DNA of 52,738 nt from positions 1-52,738 of the forward strand of contig CANQTH010000008.1 of NCBI GenBank assembly GCA_947626795.1. Reading direction: 5' to 3'. Position 1 is the stretch's first letter. Each line of letters begins with the position of its first letter. The notes under the pieces are model-generated. The model did no database searches, had not been told where the DNA came from, and was given only the letters and a program-made list of their open reading frames with translations. A program made the translations under genes and the position numbers. Of the stretch, positions 46,493-52,738 are shown piece by piece. Source of the DNA: an uncultured Lachnospiraceae bacterium (GTDB lineage Bacteria > Bacillota > Clostridia > Lachnospirales > Lachnospiraceae).

Positions 46493-46999
46493 ATGGGAAA
46501 AACAAAAACTGTACGGAACCTGGCATTCGCATTTGCCGTCATTTTAGGGCTTAATTTTATTTTGGGCGGCACGCTGCCCACTTATGCCGCTGGCATTTCA
46601 GAGGAAGATGAATCTGACGACGATGCGGTGGAAGCGGAAAAGAAGCTGGTTCAGTACAGCAATGACTGGATCGTTCTGCAGTATGACGACGAAAAGGGCG
46701 ATCCGACCCAGTTCGATATTACTTACATGGGGAAAACACCCGAGGAGCTGGAGACAGAAGGGCTGGAAATGCAGTATCGGCCGATATACAAAAGCGATGA
46801 AAACCAGATTATTCGCTGGTATTCATGGTATAATTTATCTAACTGCATTACAGAAGAAAGCCTATCTAATATTTATTCAACTAATTATACATTCGACTTT
46901 CCCCATTTTACAAGGTTTCCCAAACCTTTCATATCAGAAAATCAACTGTTTTCCCTTGTTTTTGCCCTCACCGGGTTGAAACAAGGGAAAATTTTTTAA
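46493..46999 (+). CDS. Secreted hypothetical protein, probably cut by the mobile element
   Basis: 168 aa in the present frame. A clear signal peptide (basic start, FAVILGLNFILGG, cleavage near PTYAA) is followed by an acidic, aromatic-rich region (LVQYSNDWIVLQYDDEKGD). No family recognised. From about 46840 base composition becomes AT-rich, and the frame then reads through a 13-bp terminator-like palindrome and ends one base past the integrase stop, which no normal gene would do. The true C-terminus was therefore probably displaced by element insertion, or the last part is fortuitous. AGAGG lies 7 nt before the ATG. Confidence 0.6.
   Translation: MGKTKTVRNLAFAFAVILGLNFILGGTLPTYAAGISEEDESDDDAVEAEKKLVQYSNDWIVLQYDDEKGDPTQFDITYMGKTPEELETEGLEMQYRPIYKSDENQIIRWYSWYNLSNCITEESLSNIYSTNYTFDFPHFTRFPKPFISENQLFSLVFALTGLKQGKIF
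46949..46997 (+). terminator. Terminator-like palindrome at the element's left end
   Basis: Perfect 13-bp stem TTTTCCCTTGTTT/AAACAAGGGAAAA with a 17-nt loop, followed on the plus strand by TTTTTT. It separates the host-side gene from the convergent integrase and may lie at or beside the attachment site. Confidence 0.75.
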
Positions 47000-48294
47000 C
47001 TGCCACCCACCACTTTATCCAAAAGCCTTGCAGAAGTCCGCTTTGCCTCTCTGGTTGCATGGGCATATACATTCATTGTGGTACTCACATCCGAGTGTCC
47101 GAGAAGTTCCTGCACATCCTTTGGCGAGGCACCCCCACAGAGCAGGTTGCTGGTGTAGGTGTGGCGTAACATGTGGAAATGAAAATCCTCCATATCCGGC
47201 ATTTCCCTCTGGATTTTCCGGCATACGCTGCTTACGGTCATGGGAGTTTCACATGCCCCGTCATGCCGCAGGCATACAAGGAAAATTTCTTCATAATCCA
47301 CCGGAACATCATCCGTATTCTGTAGGGTGTAAACTTCATAGTAATTACGCCCTTTCTCTGTTACCTGTCTGTAATAATTATGGCGGTAGAGTTCCCCGTA
47401 GCGGAAGCGTTCCCTGTGCTGTTCCCTTTTCGCTTTTTTTAATATCTCCGCTAAAGTATTTCCAAAATCCACAGTACGGATTTTTTTGCGTTTGGTTGTG
47501 CCAAGCTCCAGCCTGTGCCTTGCACTGTTATAACGCATACTCCGCCTTACCGTCAGATACTGTTCCTCAAGGCTGATGTCCTGCCATGATAATCCGCATA
47601 CTTCCCCGATACGGAGCCCGGTATAATAAGCTATCTGTATCGGCAGGATGGCAGGGTTGCCTTTCTTTCCAAGCAAATCCAGAATGTCCAGATACTGCTT
47701 ATGGGTAATGGTTGGTATTTCTGTTTCCTGCTCACATATCTCTGAGAAAATTTCCACATCTTCCCTGCCTGTCCTCATTACCACATACTGCATGGGATTG
47801 AACGTGATATAGTGTTTTGGGAATACTGCAAAACGGAACGCCCCATGCAGCACTGCCGACACTTGAAGCATATAGCCTTTGCTGTATGCCTTTACCGTTG
47901 TACCGTCTGCTTTTGTGCCGCCAAAGCTCAACAGGTCAATAAATTCCTGCAGATGTTCCGCTGTGACGGTTTTCAGTTTACGGTCAGTGATGGGGTGTTT
48001 CCTTATCTGCCGGATGATGGTCTGGTAACTCATTACCGTACCGTTGCTTAATGTTCCCGGCTTTACTTCTTCTTCCATCCACTTGTCAAGCATATCCCCA
48101 AGTGTGAGGTTTTCCACTCTGGCAACAAACCTCTTTTCCTCATAGTCCTCCATTGCCTTGCGGAGCATTTTCTCTGTTTCTGACTTGCTTTCTGTACCTG
48201 CATACTCCTTCTGCACCAGATTTCCGCTTTCGTTCTCCACATAAAAGCGGTAGTACCATTTCTTTCCTTTTTTTCTAACAGAACCTTTTGCCAT
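46996..48294 (-). CDS. Tyrosine-type site-specific integrase
   Basis: 432 aa, Tn916/phage-type. N-terminal AP2-like arm-binding domain (KGKKWYYRFYVENESGNLVQKEY), core-binding SAM-like domain (about 65-180), catalytic domain with Arg in TGLRIGEVCGLSW (about 234), Lys near GTTKRKKIRTV, His-X-X-Arg in HMLRHTYTSNLL, and LGHSDVSTTMNVYAH with the nucleophile Tyr (about 412). All catalytic positions are present, so it should be active. It reads outward towards the host junction, as is usual for integrases at an element end. AAGGAAGGAG precedes the ATG. Confidence 0.95.
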   Translation of the reverse strand: MAKGSVRKKGKKWYYRFYVENESGNLVQKEYAGTESKSETEKMLRKAMEDYEEKRFVARVENLTLGDMLDKWMEEEVKPGTLSNGTVMSYQTIIRQIRKHPITDRKLKTVTAEHLQEFIDLLSFGGTKADGTTVKAYSKGYMLQVSAVLHGAFRFAVFPKHYITFNPMQYVVMRTGREDVEIFSEICEQETEIPTITHKQYLDILDLLGKKGNPAILPIQIAYYTGLRIGEVCGLSWQDISLEEQYLTVRRSMRYNSARHRLELGTTKRKKIRTVDFGNTLAEILKKAKREQHRERFRYGELYRHNYYRQVTEKGRNYYEVYTLQNTDDVPVDYEEIFLVCLRHDGACETPMTVSSVCRKIQREMPDMEDFHFHMLRHTYTSNLLCGGASPKDVQELLGHSDVSTTMNVYAHATREAKRTSARLLDKVVGGS

Positions 48295-48381: not shown

Positions 48382-48993
48382 TCAGTCAGGATATTCCCTT
48401 AACATGGCAGAGATACGGTTGCGTGCCACCTTGTCATCGTCACTGTAGCCATTGATGATTTCACTAACCGCATGGATGGTGTTGACGGAGTGCTGGATTT
48501 CCCTCTGAAACATCATGTGGTTAAATTCATTCCCATCCTCAAAGCCGATGGTTTTGGCGATTTTCTCATTGTCAGCATTGTCCCCATACTGGTTGCAGGC
48601 TCTTTCAAAAGATACGGAAAATTCCTTATAGCATTTTAGTAGCAGTAATAACACATCTTTAGAAAAATCAGAATCCTTATTTCCCAAGTCAAAAGTAAGG
48701 CTGCCGGAAATCTGCTCAAAAACACTTTTGATAAGATAATCCCTGTTATCCGTAATGACGGTTTCCTTTTCCTCTGTTTCGCCTTTCAGCCATGCCACCG
48801 ATACGTGGAGTGCATCCGCAAGACCTTCAATGATGATTTTCTTTTCATTATCAATCGTGCCACGCTCATAACGCAGGATAGTGGACTTGTTGACACCGAG
48901 GCAGTCTGCAATGTCCTGTCCCGACAAGCCAAGCTCCAGCCTGCGTTCTTTTGCCCTGCTCCCAATGACTTTACGCAATTCCTTGTCTGCCAT
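48382..48993 (-). CDS. XRE family transcriptional regulator
   Basis: 203 aa. N-terminal lambda-repressor-like HTH (about 10-65: LELGLSGQDIADCLGVNKSTILRYERG), with DALHVSVAWLKGE, followed by a C-terminal helical domain without a recognised protease motif. Likely controls the element's integration/excision genes. AAAGGAGG lies 10 nt before ATG 48993; the longer frame upstream is rejected. Its gene lies between the integrase and the divergent excisionase. Confidence 0.9.
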   Translation of the reverse strand: MADKELRKVIGSRAKERRLELGLSGQDIADCLGVNKSTILRYERGTIDNEKKIIIEGLADALHVSVAWLKGETEEKETVITDNRDYLIKSVFEQISGSLTFDLGNKDSDFSKDVLLLLLKCYKEFSVSFERACNQYGDNADNEKIAKTIGFEDGNEFNHMMFQREIQHSVNTIHAVSEIINGYSDDDKVARNRISAMLREYPD

Positions 48994-49021
48994 AGTAAGC
49001 GACCTCCTTTCCTCTGTTACC

Positions 49022-49050
49022 ATAATAACACAGAAAAAAGAATAAGGCAA
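49022..49050 (-). promoter_or_regulatory. Promoter of the XRE-integrase unit
   Basis: Minus-strand TTGCCT, 17-nt spacer, TATTAT, 28 nt before the XRE start. Confidence 0.6.
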
Positions 49051-49131: not shown

Positions 49132-49146
49132 GTTGCATAATGCAAC
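49132..49146. promoter_or_regulatory. Candidate XRE operator palindrome
   Basis: GTTGCAT-A-ATGCAAC, a perfect 7-1-7 palindrome 15 bp downstream of the excisionase -10. A matching half-site GTTGCAA lies at about 49075 between the divergent promoters, so one repressor could cover both. Confidence 0.55.
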
Positions 49147-49168
49147 AAAAAGTAAAGGAGGGGTGTAT

Positions 49169-49387
49169 ATGACGGAAACGAAGATTGGAATGACGATTGA
49201 GGAATCTTCCGAGTACACAGGAATCGGCAGGAACACCATGCGGAAACTGGTGGAATGGAATAAGCTGCCTGTCCTGCGTGTCGGGAGGAAAGTCATTATC
49301 CGCAGGGACATTTTAGAGCGTTTTATGGCTGTCAATGAGGGCAGAAACCTACGGAACGAGCGAGATGTCAAAGCGGTCAGAAACTGA
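49169..49387 (+). CDS. Excisionase family DNA-binding protein
   Basis: 72 aa winged-helix protein of the Tn916 Xis/helix_turn_helix_17 type: MTIEESSEYTGIGRNTMRKLVEWNKLP for the HTH and VLRVGRKVIIRRDILERFM for the wing. It should bend the element ends and bias the integrase towards excision. AAAGGAGGGG lies before ATG 49169, and the upstream 12 residues of the frame are rejected. A hairpin CAGCCG-TAA-CGGCTG follows at 49394-49408. Confidence 0.92.
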   Translation: MTETKIGMTIEESSEYTGIGRNTMRKLVEWNKLPVLRVGRKVIIRRDILERFMAVNEGRNLRNERDVKAVRN

Positions 49388-49450
49388 AAAGGACAGCCGT
49401 AACGGCTGCCCTCATGGTAACCAGAACTTTTCTTTGGGCATGGCAGGAAT

Positions 49451-49944
49451 GGTGTGGTTTTGGTGTATGAATGATGTAGTTTATTTCTACGACGTTCCTA
49501 CATCATTTTTGGGAAACCTACACCATTCCCACATCATTTTGGGCAATGTCTACACCAAACCTACACCATGATAAAGAACAGTGGTTTGCAGAAAGGATTT
49601 TCTACATCTTTTCTACATTAAAAACTATATCATTTTCCCAAAAAGTGATAGCAAAACTATATCGTTGTCAGCAGGATAAGTTAAAGTGTTGGAAACTGGC
49701 TATATCGTTCCTATATCAGAAAAGGGAAATGCTATATCTGTACTATATCTGTCTTGGCAAAAACTATATCACTGCTATATCATTCTGGAGAATGAAGGCG
49801 ACAGAACGCAGAAAGATATGGAACAGTTGTATCACAGTTCTATACCCTGTTTGATACAAGTGAAAAAAGATATAGAACAGTCATATCACTGTCCTATATC
49901 TGGATATATCACTTTTGCAGAAAGCTCTACCACAGTGCTATACC
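49451..49944 (+). repeat. Helically phased heptamer array, consensus CTAYAYC
   Basis: Three reverse-oriented heptamers GGTGTGG, GGTGTAT, GATGTAG start at 49451, 49462 and 49473. Then forward heptamers start at 49487, 49498, 49518, 49529, 49550, 49561, 49602, 49613, 49625, 49657, 49700, 49711, 49732, 49743, 49764 and 49775, with more scattered variants to about 49944 (a perfect CTATATC at 49894). Spacings are 11, 20-21, 32, 41-43: close to whole turns of the helix. The sequence shifts from CTACACC on the left through CTACATC to CTATATC on the right. This fits a multi-site protein-binding array such as replication iterons, a partition site or a relaxosome accessory site. Confidence 0.85.
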
Positions 49945-50082
49945 CTGCCGGATATTGACATAAGCAGATACGGCACCAGGTTAATTTTCTTGTTGATGAT
50001 AGTTTTTACTGTAGAAGAATATCGCAGACCTGTCACTTTTTGCCCTAAGAGAAGTTCCCTGTTAAGCCCTCGGCGTTTGAGA

Positions 50083-50235
50083 GCGAAATACACCCATCGC
50101 ACAAATCAGAGATTTGTACTCCGGGTATTTCGCCCTGCCGGGAGCAAATTCACGCAGGCGTGAATTACAAATGCTGACGCATTTGCAGCAGTGCCAGAAA
50201 TGGCACAGGGTTCGTAACCGGACACCTAAGTGTCC
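50083..50235 (+). other. Run of hairpins upstream of the relaxase; candidate oriT
   Basis: In order: GCGAAATAC/GTATTTCGC (50083-50133) enclosing ACAAATC-AGA-GATTTGT; AATTCACGC-AG-GCGTGAATT (50147-50166); CAAATGC-TGAC-GCATTTG (50168-50185); GTGCCA-GAAA-TGGCAC (50191-50206); GGTT-CGT-AACC (50209-50219); GGACAC-CTAA-GTGTCC (50220-50235). The region ends 10 nt before the relaxase ribosome site. Transfer origins are normally just upstream of their relaxase genes and rich in inverted repeats, so it is the best oriT candidate here. A structured mRNA leader is the alternative. Confidence 0.6.
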
Positions 50236-50258
50236 ACTCACAGGGGGAGGTGTGCTGT

Positions 50259-51923
50259 GTGCAGAGAAATTCTTTTATCCAGATGTCAAAGCTGAGCAAC
50301 GTGCGGGGACGCATTACTTATATTTCCAGCCACGCAAAGCAGGAAAATTTATATGCAGTATATGAAACAACGGAGCGTTCTTTCTGGAAAGAGCTTGCCC
50401 TGTGTAACCGGCATACGTTTCAAAAAAGCGGTACAGAGGGGAAATGTATTGAGGCAAGGGAACTGATTATTGCCCTGCCGGAAGATTTGGTGCAGTATGA
50501 GCCGGAGTATGTTTTGGAACAGTTTACCAAGCATTTCAAATACAGATATGGTGTGGAGTGCATTTCTGCCCTGCACCATAATAAGGCAAAGACCAACTAC
50601 CATATCCATCTGATATTTTCGGAAAGGAAACTTCTTGATGAGCCGGTAATTAAGACTGCCGCCAGAAGCATGTTTTATGATGAGAAAGGGAAACGTGTGC
50701 GTACCAAGAAAGAGATTTTAGATGAAAATGGTGCTATCCGTAAGAAATGCAGGGTTATCAAAAAAGGGGAAGTTTATGAGAAGATGCTTTTTACCATCAA
50801 AAATAAGCGGTTCAAGCAGGAGGGCTTTTTGGAGGAAGTGAAACAGGATTTTACTGCATTTATCAATACTTTTGTTTTTGACGAGAAGAAAAAACTGGCG
50901 GTGTTTGATAAGCAAAGCCCCTATCTTGCCACGAAGAAGATAGGGAAGAATAACCCAAAAGAAGAACAGATAAAGACGGATAACTGGGCAAGGATGGAGT
51001 GGAACCGTACCGTTGACAGGGCATTGGTGGAGGGAATCAGCCGGGAGGAGGTTTTGCAGGTTAAGAGAGAAGAAATCACAGAGAAGGTGCGGGAATCGGT
51101 TCACAAGTGGGGAAACCGACCTTGGTTTTTCTTTTCGATTGTTACCCATGCAGTGGATATTTTGTCTGCCCTGATTGGGAAGATACGGGAACAGTTCCGA
51201 AAGATTACTGCTTTCTTTGAAAAAGACAGAAAGGACACTGCACCTGTAGAAAGCATAAAAAATGTTCCACTGGTTGGACCTTTGGTCCAAGAAGCAGAGA
51301 AAACAATCATACGGGCAGATGTTGCAGCCACGTCACAAAAAACGGAGTTAAAGCCGGAATCAGAAGCACAGATAGCAGATGTATCACAAACAGTATCTAT
51401 TTTAGGGATAAAAGAAAAAACTGTTTCTGATTCTGCCGAAATGACAAAGGAATATGAATCAAAAATAAGTACAAATCTTGAACCACAGAATGACGATATC
51501 CCGCCAAGACCAGAGTTTTCTATGGATATGGAGGAATATGATAAGATACAGGGCATATATAAACAGTTGGTAAGACAGGAGAATGCTGTCCTTACCTGTG
51601 AAAAGGAATTGGGGCAGTTACGGCAGGATTTACTTCTCTGTACTGGTGTATTTCAAGGGAAACGTAGAAAGGAACTGCAAGGGCAGATAGCAAATAAGGA
51701 ACAGCAGCTAGCAGATGCGAAACAACGTCTGGGGGATATCGTTAAAGGGTATGGTTATCCGAGTGTGGATTCGTTTATGGGAATTTATCGTAATACAAAA
51801 ACGGATTATGCTGATTATACCAAGCAGTTGAAGGAATGGGGAGAGAAGTATGGTATGAGGTATGTGAAACGGGAGTTTGAGGAAAGGGGGGAATCATATC
51901 CGCATAAGTCTAATAGCAGATAA
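50259..51923 (+). CDS. MobL-type relaxase
   Basis: 554 aa. The N-terminal relaxase domain (about 1-270) includes KLSNVRGRITYISSHAKQENLY (shortened: KLSNVRGRITYISS), GTEGKCIEARELIIALPE and the metal-binding HNKAKTNYHIHLIFSER with its His-X-His. A candidate catalytic Tyr is in RITYISS. The C-terminal half is a long charged region with coiled-coil character (about 440-530). It should nick the element's oriT and lead the strand through a helper mating channel; no type IV secretion genes are visible, so the element may be mobilizable only. The start is either GTG 50259 (GGAGG 8 nt upstream) or ATG 50283, which gives the family's MSKLSNV. Confidence 0.85.
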   Translation: MQRNSFIQMSKLSNVRGRITYISSHAKQENLYAVYETTERSFWKELALCNRHTFQKSGTEGKCIEARELIIALPEDLVQYEPEYVLEQFTKHFKYRYGVECISALHHNKAKTNYHIHLIFSERKLLDEPVIKTAARSMFYDEKGKRVRTKKEILDENGAIRKKCRVIKKGEVYEKMLFTIKNKRFKQEGFLEEVKQDFTAFINTFVFDEKKKLAVFDKQSPYLATKKIGKNNPKEEQIKTDNWARMEWNRTVDRALVEGISREEVLQVKREEITEKVRESVHKWGNRPWFFFSIVTHAVDILSALIGKIREQFRKITAFFEKDRKDTAPVESIKNVPLVGPLVQEAEKTIIRADVAATSQKTELKPESEAQIADVSQTVSILGIKEKTVSDSAEMTKEYESKISTNLEPQNDDIPPRPEFSMDMEEYDKIQGIYKQLVRQENAVLTCEKELGQLRQDLLLCTGVFQGKRRKELQGQIANKEQQLADAKQRLGDIVKGYGYPSVDSFMGIYRNTKTDYADYTKQLKEWGEKYGMRYVKREFEERGESYPHKSNSR

Positions 51924-51935
51924 TAATACAATACA

Positions 51936-51989
51936 AAAAAACAAGGTGTACTACAATTGGGGGGATTCCCCCATTATTGCGTACACCTT
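51936..51989 (-). terminator. Terminator of the right-end minus-strand unit
   Basis: AAGGTGTAC/GTACACCTT stem (51943-51951, 51981-51989) enclosing TGGGGG-GATT-CCCCCA, followed on the minus strand by TTTTTTTGTATTG. It lies between the convergent relaxase gene and the membrane protein gene. Confidence 0.88.
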
Positions 51990-52022
51990 AATGAAACTGC
52001 ATGGAAATATAAAGAAAATGCA

Positions 52023-52310
52023 TTATTTGAAATGTAACAATGAACCTATATATAATAATGATATTCCAATAATTGCAATTGTAATTGCGACTACAGCTAT
52101 TAAATCTTCTCTCTGTTTCAATGTTCGATATAACTGTATATTTTCGACTAATAATGTTATCAAAAATATTAATATTAAATCATAGCTGATTTTTCTTGAT
52201 AATAAATTCAAAATAACAAATGTGCATAAAGAAATTTTTATTATCATTAATGTATATTTTGAGTTAGAATTTATTATATCCATATCATTTTTTATATTAT
52301 ATTTATTCAT
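52023..52310 (-). CDS. Small three-helix membrane protein, possible immunity protein
   Basis: 95 aa, very AT-rich codons. Three hydrophobic segments: about residues 19-38 (YTLMIIKISLCTFVILNLL), 43-60 (YDLILIFLITLLVENIQLY) and 70-92 (IAVVAITIAIIGISLLYIGSLL). No family recognised. The ATG begins one base after the TGA of the upstream gene (TGATATG), so translation is coupled and the two products are probably made in fixed ratio. Small multi-helix membrane proteins in this position often protect the producer of a secreted bacteriocin; that function is inferred from context only. Confidence 0.6.
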   Translation of the reverse strand: MNKYNIKNDMDIINSNSKYTLMIIKISLCTFVILNLLSRKISYDLILIFLITLLVENIQLYRTLKQREDLIAVVAITIAIIGISLLYIGSLLHFK

Positions 52311-52311
52311 A

Positions 52312-52738
52312 TCATTTCCCTAGCCTCTTTTTTATTTTCTTTATTGCTGAACCTAATTTACAATTATTATAAACACTATCTACTCCAGAAATTGTAGCCG
52401 CCAAAGTTAATAACGTCTTTGCAACAGCAGTTGATTTTTCTGTTATACTTGTTGCCCCAATAAGCAATTGTGCTGTTTCTTTTATGCCACCAAGCTCTTT
52501 AATATATTTTTTGATTTTAACAAGTTTTGTGGCAGCAAAAATTGTTGTTCCGATAACCCATGCAATAGAACCAACACACTTTGTGACTTGCCATACAGAT
52601 GGATCGGCAACAACAGGGAATGCGGTATTTTTATCGAAATCTACTGTTTGATAAATGTTATTGCCATCAATTGTATAGAATGTGTTGAGATTATTTCCAT
52701 TTGCATCCTTTGCCCATGGTTTGTCAATAATATATATT
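52312..52738 (-). CDS. C-terminal part of a secreted-type protein, bacteriocin-like (partial)
   Basis: The frame enters from beyond the window and gives the last 141 residues. It reads YTIDGNNIYQTVDFDKNTAF then PVVADPSVW, a connector I associate with secreted Gram-positive proteins, then a hydrophobic stretch around CVGSIAWVIGTTIFAATKL, a basic KIKKYIKELGG, a second apolar region (TLLTLAATISGVDSV) and a basic tail KKIKKRLGK. The hydrophobic and cationic tail suits membrane attack. No catalytic motif is seen. It is followed, with 1 nt between stop and start, by the small membrane protein. Composition is clearly more AT-rich than the relaxase and integrase genes. The N-terminus, and any signal peptide, lies outside the window. 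Confidence 0.6.
   Translation of the reverse strand, partial: IYIIDKPWAKDANGNNLNTFYTIDGNNIYQTVDFDKNTAFPVVADPSVWQVTKCVGSIAWVIGTTIFAATKLVKIKKYIKELGGIKETAQLLIGATSITEKSTAVAKTLLTLAATISGVDSVYNNCKLGSAIKKIKKRLGK

Follow-up and report, generated by a model that had tools for sequence, protein, structure and literature searches.

A phased heptamer array beside the putative transfer origin of a Lachnospiraceae mobilizable element matches an ICE array and may be a parC-like centromere

What could read a long array of phased heptamers lying between the excisionase gene and the putative transfer origin of a mobilizable element (IME)? The stretch of DNA analysed here (the window) is contig C8, 52738 bases of the 2.89-Mb, 144-contig genome G000 of an uncultured Lachnospiraceae bacterium. 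Its last part, starting near 46.9 kb, contains part of an IME with the order int (-), XRE (-), xis (+), array, oriT-like region and MobL (+) (Table 1). The element is cut by the contig end and its right end is absent from the contig. A sequence-only reading had described the array and suggested a partition centromere, an iteron origin or a relaxosome site.

Table 1. Features of the IME part of the window
Feature	Position	Strand	Basis
Tyrosine integrase gene int	46996..48294	-	Pfam PF00589 E=2.7e-28; gene order same in relatives
XRE-type regulator gene (listed ORF; true start probably an internal ATG)	48382..49050	-	HTH_3 E=2.9e-07
Excisionase gene xis (HTH_17 / Tn916-Xis)	49169..49387	+	TIGR01764 E=2e-11 and PF09035 E=1.6e-06 for ORF 49133-49387
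Reverse head, three heptamers at exact 11-bp steps (CCACACC, ATACACC, CTACATC)	49451..49479	-	all three exact CTAYAYC in L026, L027, L028, L091
Forward array, many 11-bp pairs recurring every 31-32 bp; CTACACC-type first, CTATATC-type later	49487..49781	+	spacing kept in L026, L027, L028, L091, partly L029; heptamer and spacing set as in ICE L142
Distal part, inverted and direct CTATATC/CTATACC sites around AGATATRGAACAG...CTATA	49809..49957	.	whole or partial in L026, L027, L028, L029, L091
oriT-like region, conserved inverted repeats GCGAAATACACCC...GTATTTCGC and TAAGTG-like motif before MobL	50067..50245	+	start motif CCCTCGGCG[TC]T in xis-MobL gaps
MobA/MobL-family relaxase gene	50250..51923	+	PF03389 E=2.4e-10; relatives found

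Phasing and conservation of the array

The 515 bp at window 49441-49955 contain 18 exact CTAYAYC heptamers, 16 forward and two reverse, whereas 5000 dinucleotide-preserving shuffles averaged 0.31 and never exceeded 4, which confirms the excess of sites over shuffled controls. A looser heptamer pattern gives 25 sites at 49451-49957. The forward sites are spaced by 20, 32, 11, 41, 23, 32, 43, 11, 21, 11, 21, 11, 65, 54 and 44 bp. For these 16 exact sites the best period is 10.75 bp (R=0.90), placing them on one helical face, and the maximum of R over 10.2-11.0 bp, 0.87, was matched by none of 5000 random placements with a minimum spacing of 7 bp. The window array thus has the short repeats in helical register expected of a parC. 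The earlier proposal that the sites lie on one DNA face holds, with a period nearer 10.75 than 10.6 bp.

The same reading had given the array a head of three reverse sites at 11-bp steps. These are present (49451, 49462 and 49473), although the first two are not exact CTAYAYC; in relatives L026, L027, L028 and L091 all three sites are exact, so that the head can be taken as real and conserved. The remaining sites had been taken as forward, but from 49815 onward orientations are mixed. The shift from CTACACC to CTATATC along the array is present and seen again in relatives. In a search of the host genome the array DNA was the single match. Five 11-bp heptamer pairs occur in that genome, four inside the array and one on contig C29 upstream of a host gene, which looks like chance.

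Among 101 surveyed loci of relaxase relatives (L003-L103), dense CTAYAYC arrays occur in five, L026, L027, L028, L029 and L091, with 9 to 20 sites per 600 bp; the others have at most three sites each. All five arrays sit between xis, where it is present in the sequence, and the oriT-like region. Absence of spacing conservation in related elements had been named as grounds for giving up the array, and here spacings stay near whole turns (11, 21, 31-32, 41-44 and 75) despite gain and loss of sites. The same slot holds other motifs in other IMEs, namely TCAACTGA and CTATCAT types in L030, L034, L045 and L065, TGGTATG in L040, and GTCCACCCA and others in L006.

The oriT-like region has a wider distribution. 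Of 64 xis-MobL gaps, among which the window counts three times, 59 have the exact start motif, with or without arrays; L026 has no exact copy. Near-duplicates, one N-containing gap and, with one exception, gaps with <60 bp ahead of the motif were filtered out; of the 34 retained, 33 exceed 120 bp. The TAAGTG-like motif of the region may resemble MOBQ nick sites. The gap is <300 bp in 18 relatives, and 17 of these keep the oriT-like signature with no room for an array. Past MobL, window 51923-52738 is an AT-rich cargo end with no nameable genes that ends with the contig; downstream of MobL, relative L091 has VanZ, two-component and group II intron maturase genes. Three 5-10 kb MobL-relaxase elements deposited as unverified human-stool bacteriophage (L122, L123 and L124; MT836902.1, MT836879.1 and MT838331.1) are probably IMEs of the window's kind.

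The same array in a conjugative element

A triple-site pattern search of 397 genomes of the family gave four positives: the window's own, G339 (L091), G367 (at a contig edge) and G270. The G270 array lies inside a conjugative element (ICE), L142, in the order RadC, TOPRIM/DUF3991, array, GGGGTTTTAGGGG...CCCCTAACC motif, unknown gene, MobC, VirD2-like relaxase and DUF3801 (Pfam). This ICE is Tn1549-like. The GGGGTTTTAGGGG...CCCCTAACC motif is taken as its putative oriT. G367 has a second, mixed CTATATC/CTACACC array at the edge of contig C26 (L140:8194-8680), some kilobases past recombinase and IS66-like genes (by eye), and no listed L142-ParR match. In G270, two GGTGTAG repeats 12 bp apart lie near the ICE left end (L186:6400-6900; contig C4 near 141.5 kb), with an oriT-like GGGATTTCAGGGG...CTCCTGAC stretch slightly beyond.

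The window and L142 arrays have common heptamers, identical 11-bp units CTACACCATTC and CTACATCATTC, and the same 11/21/32-bp spacing. Between the window IME segment and the 16-kb L142 stretch the sole blastn alignment (E<=1e-3) is 28 bp, within the arrays. An array that matches a conjugative element's in otherwise dissimilar DNA, as expected of a helper mimic, was thus found. Shared 8-mers over 528 IME x ICE array pairs gave 16 pairs with scores >=120, not independent as related IMEs repeat, against none with reversed ICE arrays (ICEs L169, L172, L178, L181 and L182 were outside the 528 pairs). The window-L142 score is 234, and the best reversed score of the window is 66. At a threshold of >=80 there are 40 real pairs and 20 reversed-control pairs.

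Against shuffles, three IME-ICE motif classes emerged: CTACACC with L142 (z 21-28), TCAACTGA with L177 (z up to 19) and TGGTATG with L170 (z 13, one IME). For the TCAACTGA class the reversed L177 array scores up to 112 versus 106-196 for the real one, and in blastn tests of one IME each from the L177 and L170 classes nothing aligned. Given these results and the control scores at lower thresholds, the case for an IME-ICE match depends on motif together with spacing, and it is firmest in the class to which the window belongs. Several IME arrays (e.g. L067, L098 and L039) had no match among the ICEs compared. The array DNA gave no match in plasmids or phages, nor did L142 ParR in plasmids. Window 49487-49781 holds two motif subtypes in one array, CTACACC then CTATATC. 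Since the L142 array is of the CTACACC/CTACATC type only, the CTATATC part may answer to another, unseen ICE.

Arrays are usual in this slot of the ICEs. Our ICE set has 21 loci, 20 MobC relatives from 15 of 250 genomes plus L142, and 20 of them carry an array by script or eye, none being seen at L157/L181. The script flagged 15 of the 21, L158 and L161 on scattered words; the arrays of these two and five more were judged by eye. Motifs are mostly private (GTGGGGGC, TGGTAG, TGAGTGA, TTGGATTAA etc.), direct or inverted and often in 32-bp units. An exact copy of GGGGTTTTAGGGG, the putative ICE oriT motif, is present at 11 of the 21 loci, and variants were seen by eye at others. Directly after the oriT-like motif of the ICE (L142:8596-9144 and counterparts) lies a fast-diverging gene without a Pfam match, with 23-33% identity to its counterparts where matched versus mostly 45-60% for neighbour genes.

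ParM, a ParR-like protein and other candidate readers

The ICEs encode a ParM-like actin (ALP_N E=5.2e-12 and 4.2e-11; PDB Alp12 E=2.1e-07) followed by a small protein that we call ParR-like for its position after parM, its size and an N-terminus that by eye is RHH-like; searches of Pfam, NCBIfam and PDB sequences gave these proteins no credible match. In the L142-type ICE the ParR-like gene lies at 146681-147121 of G270 contig C4. ParM is present in 14 of the 19 upstream stretches, besides L142 and L177, and all 16 also have a ParR-like match. Four of the five stretches without ParM reach the contig edge within 4-8 kb (L209, L211, L219 and L221); the fifth, L223, is an 18.5 kb stretch. In the two ICEs measured, the array lies 8 and 10.5 kb from parMR. 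Searches by tblastn (E<=1e-3) matched neither ParM nor ParR in L026, L027, L028, L029, L091 or the window, where the contig stops inside the element. A parC would share its element with parM and parR; the matching ICE shows this arrangement, and the part of the IME in the window does not.

Does the array change with ParR? Over 13 ICEs, array similarity in 7-mers correlates with ParR similarity (Spearman 0.47, p=0.0075), as it does for the first 60 residues of ParR (0.51, p=0.003) and for ParR with 8-mers (0.39, p=0.0125), versus 0.15 (p=0.18) for MobC. For ParM alone the value is 0.27 (p=0.06), and about 0 given ParR. This set leaves out L172 and L182, near-duplicates of L169 and L178, and L164, whose ParR was misread by script and is present by tblastn. 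A 15-ICE version gave 0.43 (p=0.003) for ParR and 0.10 for MobC. Thus in both versions array sequence and ParR change together, as for a parC, and near-identical ParR proteins go with the same array motif (L169/L172 and L178/L182). The relaxase value (0.30, p=0.067) includes misread start points (identities 0.03-0.07) and is not usable as a control. Two other ICE proteins were considered as readers and rejected. The DUF3801/PcfB protein has an FtsK-gamma-like domain that is conserved over ICEs with different arrays; the N-terminal strand of MobC is common to several ICEs with different motifs, and its correlation is not significant.

Homologues of L142 ParR at E<=1e-12 occur in three of the 397 family genomes: G270 itself, G188, and G192 (27%, with a stop). 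In the order, one of 392 genomes had a homologue, again G188. For G188, whose ParR is 70% identical, an array was predicted beforehand; the contig with the ICE stops short of the predicted place, and a search of the genome gave no phased array. The window genome G000 has no homologue of L142 ParR (E<=1e-12), TOPRIM (E<=1e-30) or MobC, and G339 and G367, which have the array and not this ICE, are outside the three genomes with a ParR match. Because the ParR search had no match in G000, G339 or G367, the helper with cognate ParR in the same cell that a mimic would lead one to expect was not seen there; helpers may be transient.

Some MobL elements carry partition-like genes. L022 has, in order, a recombinase, a ParR-like gene, a GACGGCA array, an oriT-like region and MobL, with no ParM in its 3.9 kb by tblastn nor by eye among ORFs in the first 12 kb of the contig. 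L068, L069 and L072 have ParM matches, L068 and L072 also a ParR-like gene by eye, and L068 has short repeats and an oriT-like region ahead of MobL. Elements of the L022/L068 type would be intermediate forms, and the window type one that has kept only the array.

Partition by a helper, and other readings

A relaxosome enhancer is one alternative, which we hold to be rather unlikely: a helper's ParR-like protein would bind the array beside oriT and promote nicking or docking while taking no part in segregation. It would fit the position of the array, which adjoins an oriT-like region in IMEs and ICEs alike, the order parR-array-oriT-MobL in L022 with no ParM recognised nearby, and the stimulation of relaxase and transfer by ParM and ParR of R1 described in PMC4949242. 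However, none of the 16 ICEs with ParM lacks a ParR-like match, suggesting a partition pair. A relaxosome role, suggested earlier, is moreover not required, because 17 of the 18 gaps <300 bp keep the oriT-like signature without room for an array; the array may still act in transfer through ParR.

An iteron origin, bound by a replication initiator and copied by IMEs from ICE arrays for replication by the helper, seems improbable. Phased repeats and an inverted head are iteron-like, and a TOPRIM/DUF3991 primase-like gene precedes the array in 18 of the 21 ICE loci. In some viral contigs, too, CTACACC arrays lie beside P4/D5-like primase-helicase genes by eye (L105:10929-11200, L106:4124-4313, L107:7932-7960 and L121:38-66), and these are possibly phage origins. 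But the genes scanned in the window, which lacks the right part of the element, include no initiator, and array similarity tracks ParR. We rejected the phage link of CTACACC arrays: 17 viral stretches, several of them near copies, stand against 5 and 6 for two control heptamers, two of the 5 being on the same contigs.

It is very improbable that the IME's own Xis or XRE reads the array, as Xis/BldC-type head-to-tail filaments on direct repeats one turn apart. The array adjoins xis, recombination directionality factors bind such repeats (PMC7498355), and the XRE DNA-binding helix differs between the window type and other IMEs (compared without the fragments L030, L034, L041 and L045); but the Xis helix region is nearly invariant across IMEs with differing arrays, its stretch TGIGRNT[ML]R[KND]LV[EDK]W varying at three places only, and neither Xis (E<=1e-3) nor XRE (E<=1e-10) has a match in G270, where the ICE with this array resides. 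Because at least three motifs occur among six IMEs whose helix stretch is identical, Xis is unlikely as the reader, and the change of its recognition helix with the array motif that filaments would call for was not found. XRE is unlikely as reader on the ICE side and less clearly so on the IME side, because its helix differs between IME groups.

We therefore return to the partition centromere, the best supported of the three earlier guesses, since both ParM and a ParR-like protein are encoded by the ICE that has this array, and motifs track ParR. Judged from sequence comparison, the window array is rather probably a parC-like centromere array that matches those of helper ICEs and would let an IME without parMR use the helper's ParM and ParR. 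The array, its conservation, its match in motif and geometry to the ICE array, parMR in the ICEs and the tracking of ParR by array similarity are read from the DNA; from these we infer ParR binding, an RHH fold of ParR, an effect on partition or transfer, and the identity of the helper. The array would be of type II (ParMRC), like those found beside the putative oriT of Tn1549-like ICEs in this bacterial family. ParR from the ICE would bind heptamers on one DNA face, one site per helical turn, and tie the array DNA to ParM filaments. Because the IME array matches the ICE array, the helper's ParR and ParM would act on the excised IME circle as well, which would be stabilised, placed at the helper's transfer pore, or both.

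Arrays of heptamers have a precedent in plasmid biology. The omega repressor of pSM19035, an RHH protein, binds adjoining WATCACW heptamers, and the sequence-only reading had drawn this comparison. The likeness goes as far as heptamer sites, here for a putative RHH protein. It fails in detail: the sites here are CTAYAYC at 11-bp steps and not adjoining WATCACW, and the window's part of the element has no ParR-like match.

Actin-type partition systems come closer. ParR proteins bind repeats of 10-20 bp with family-specific recognition, which in pCW3-like plasmids decides incompatibility (PMC9426499). There, parC of R1 and of Clostridium perfringens pCW3-like plasmids likewise consists of short ParR-bound repeats (11 bp in R1), possibly mixed direct and inverted; it usually lies upstream of parM on the same plasmid, whereas the window element has an array without parMR. 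The distances of 8 and 10.5 kb from parMR also differ from most known parC. A further likeness is srpMRC of SXT/R391 ICEs (PMC4489591): ParM, a functional ParR (SrpR) described as without homology to known ParR, and centromere-like repeats in the oriT intergenic region. However, srpC lies directly upstream of srpM with four 13-bp repeats, while the array here is longer, ICE-specific and 8-10.5 kb from parMR. Par proteins can also stimulate conjugation (PMC4949242 and PMC12421886).

For an element that borrows a centromere, the nearest case is SGI1, a mobilizable element whose parS-like sites are copies of its helper's centromere and hijack the parABS partition proteins of helper IncC (PMC10954446). 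By that account SGI1 uses type I ParABS with two copies, whereas here we see type II-like ParMR, long phased arrays and Lachnospiraceae-type IMEs. New relative to SGI1 are the type II-like system, the arrays beside oriT and the motif classes by which different IMEs match different ICEs; the use of helper proteins is shown for SGI1 and would apply here. Among the top matches in the open-access literature we found no report of type II-like centromere mimicry by an IME.

To our knowledge, the only mobilizable element so far known to mimic a centromere is SGI1, and there the system is type I ParABS. If the proposal holds, such mimicry would extend to actin-type ParMR in common gut Firmicutes, and partition sites would be tied to transfer origins in ICEs and IMEs alike. 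Under the same proposal IMEs could be linked to their helpers from sequence, which IME biology has so far lacked, and the link would be testable by simple binding and stability assays. We raise more tentatively that MobL IMEs might combine several parC-like arrays, each with its private motif, into sets of helper-recognition cassettes that answer to the ParRs of different ICE families. It would then be ParR-parC recognition, rather than oriT alone, that helps decide which IME a given ICE can carry, and centromere sequences would be drawn into an arms race.
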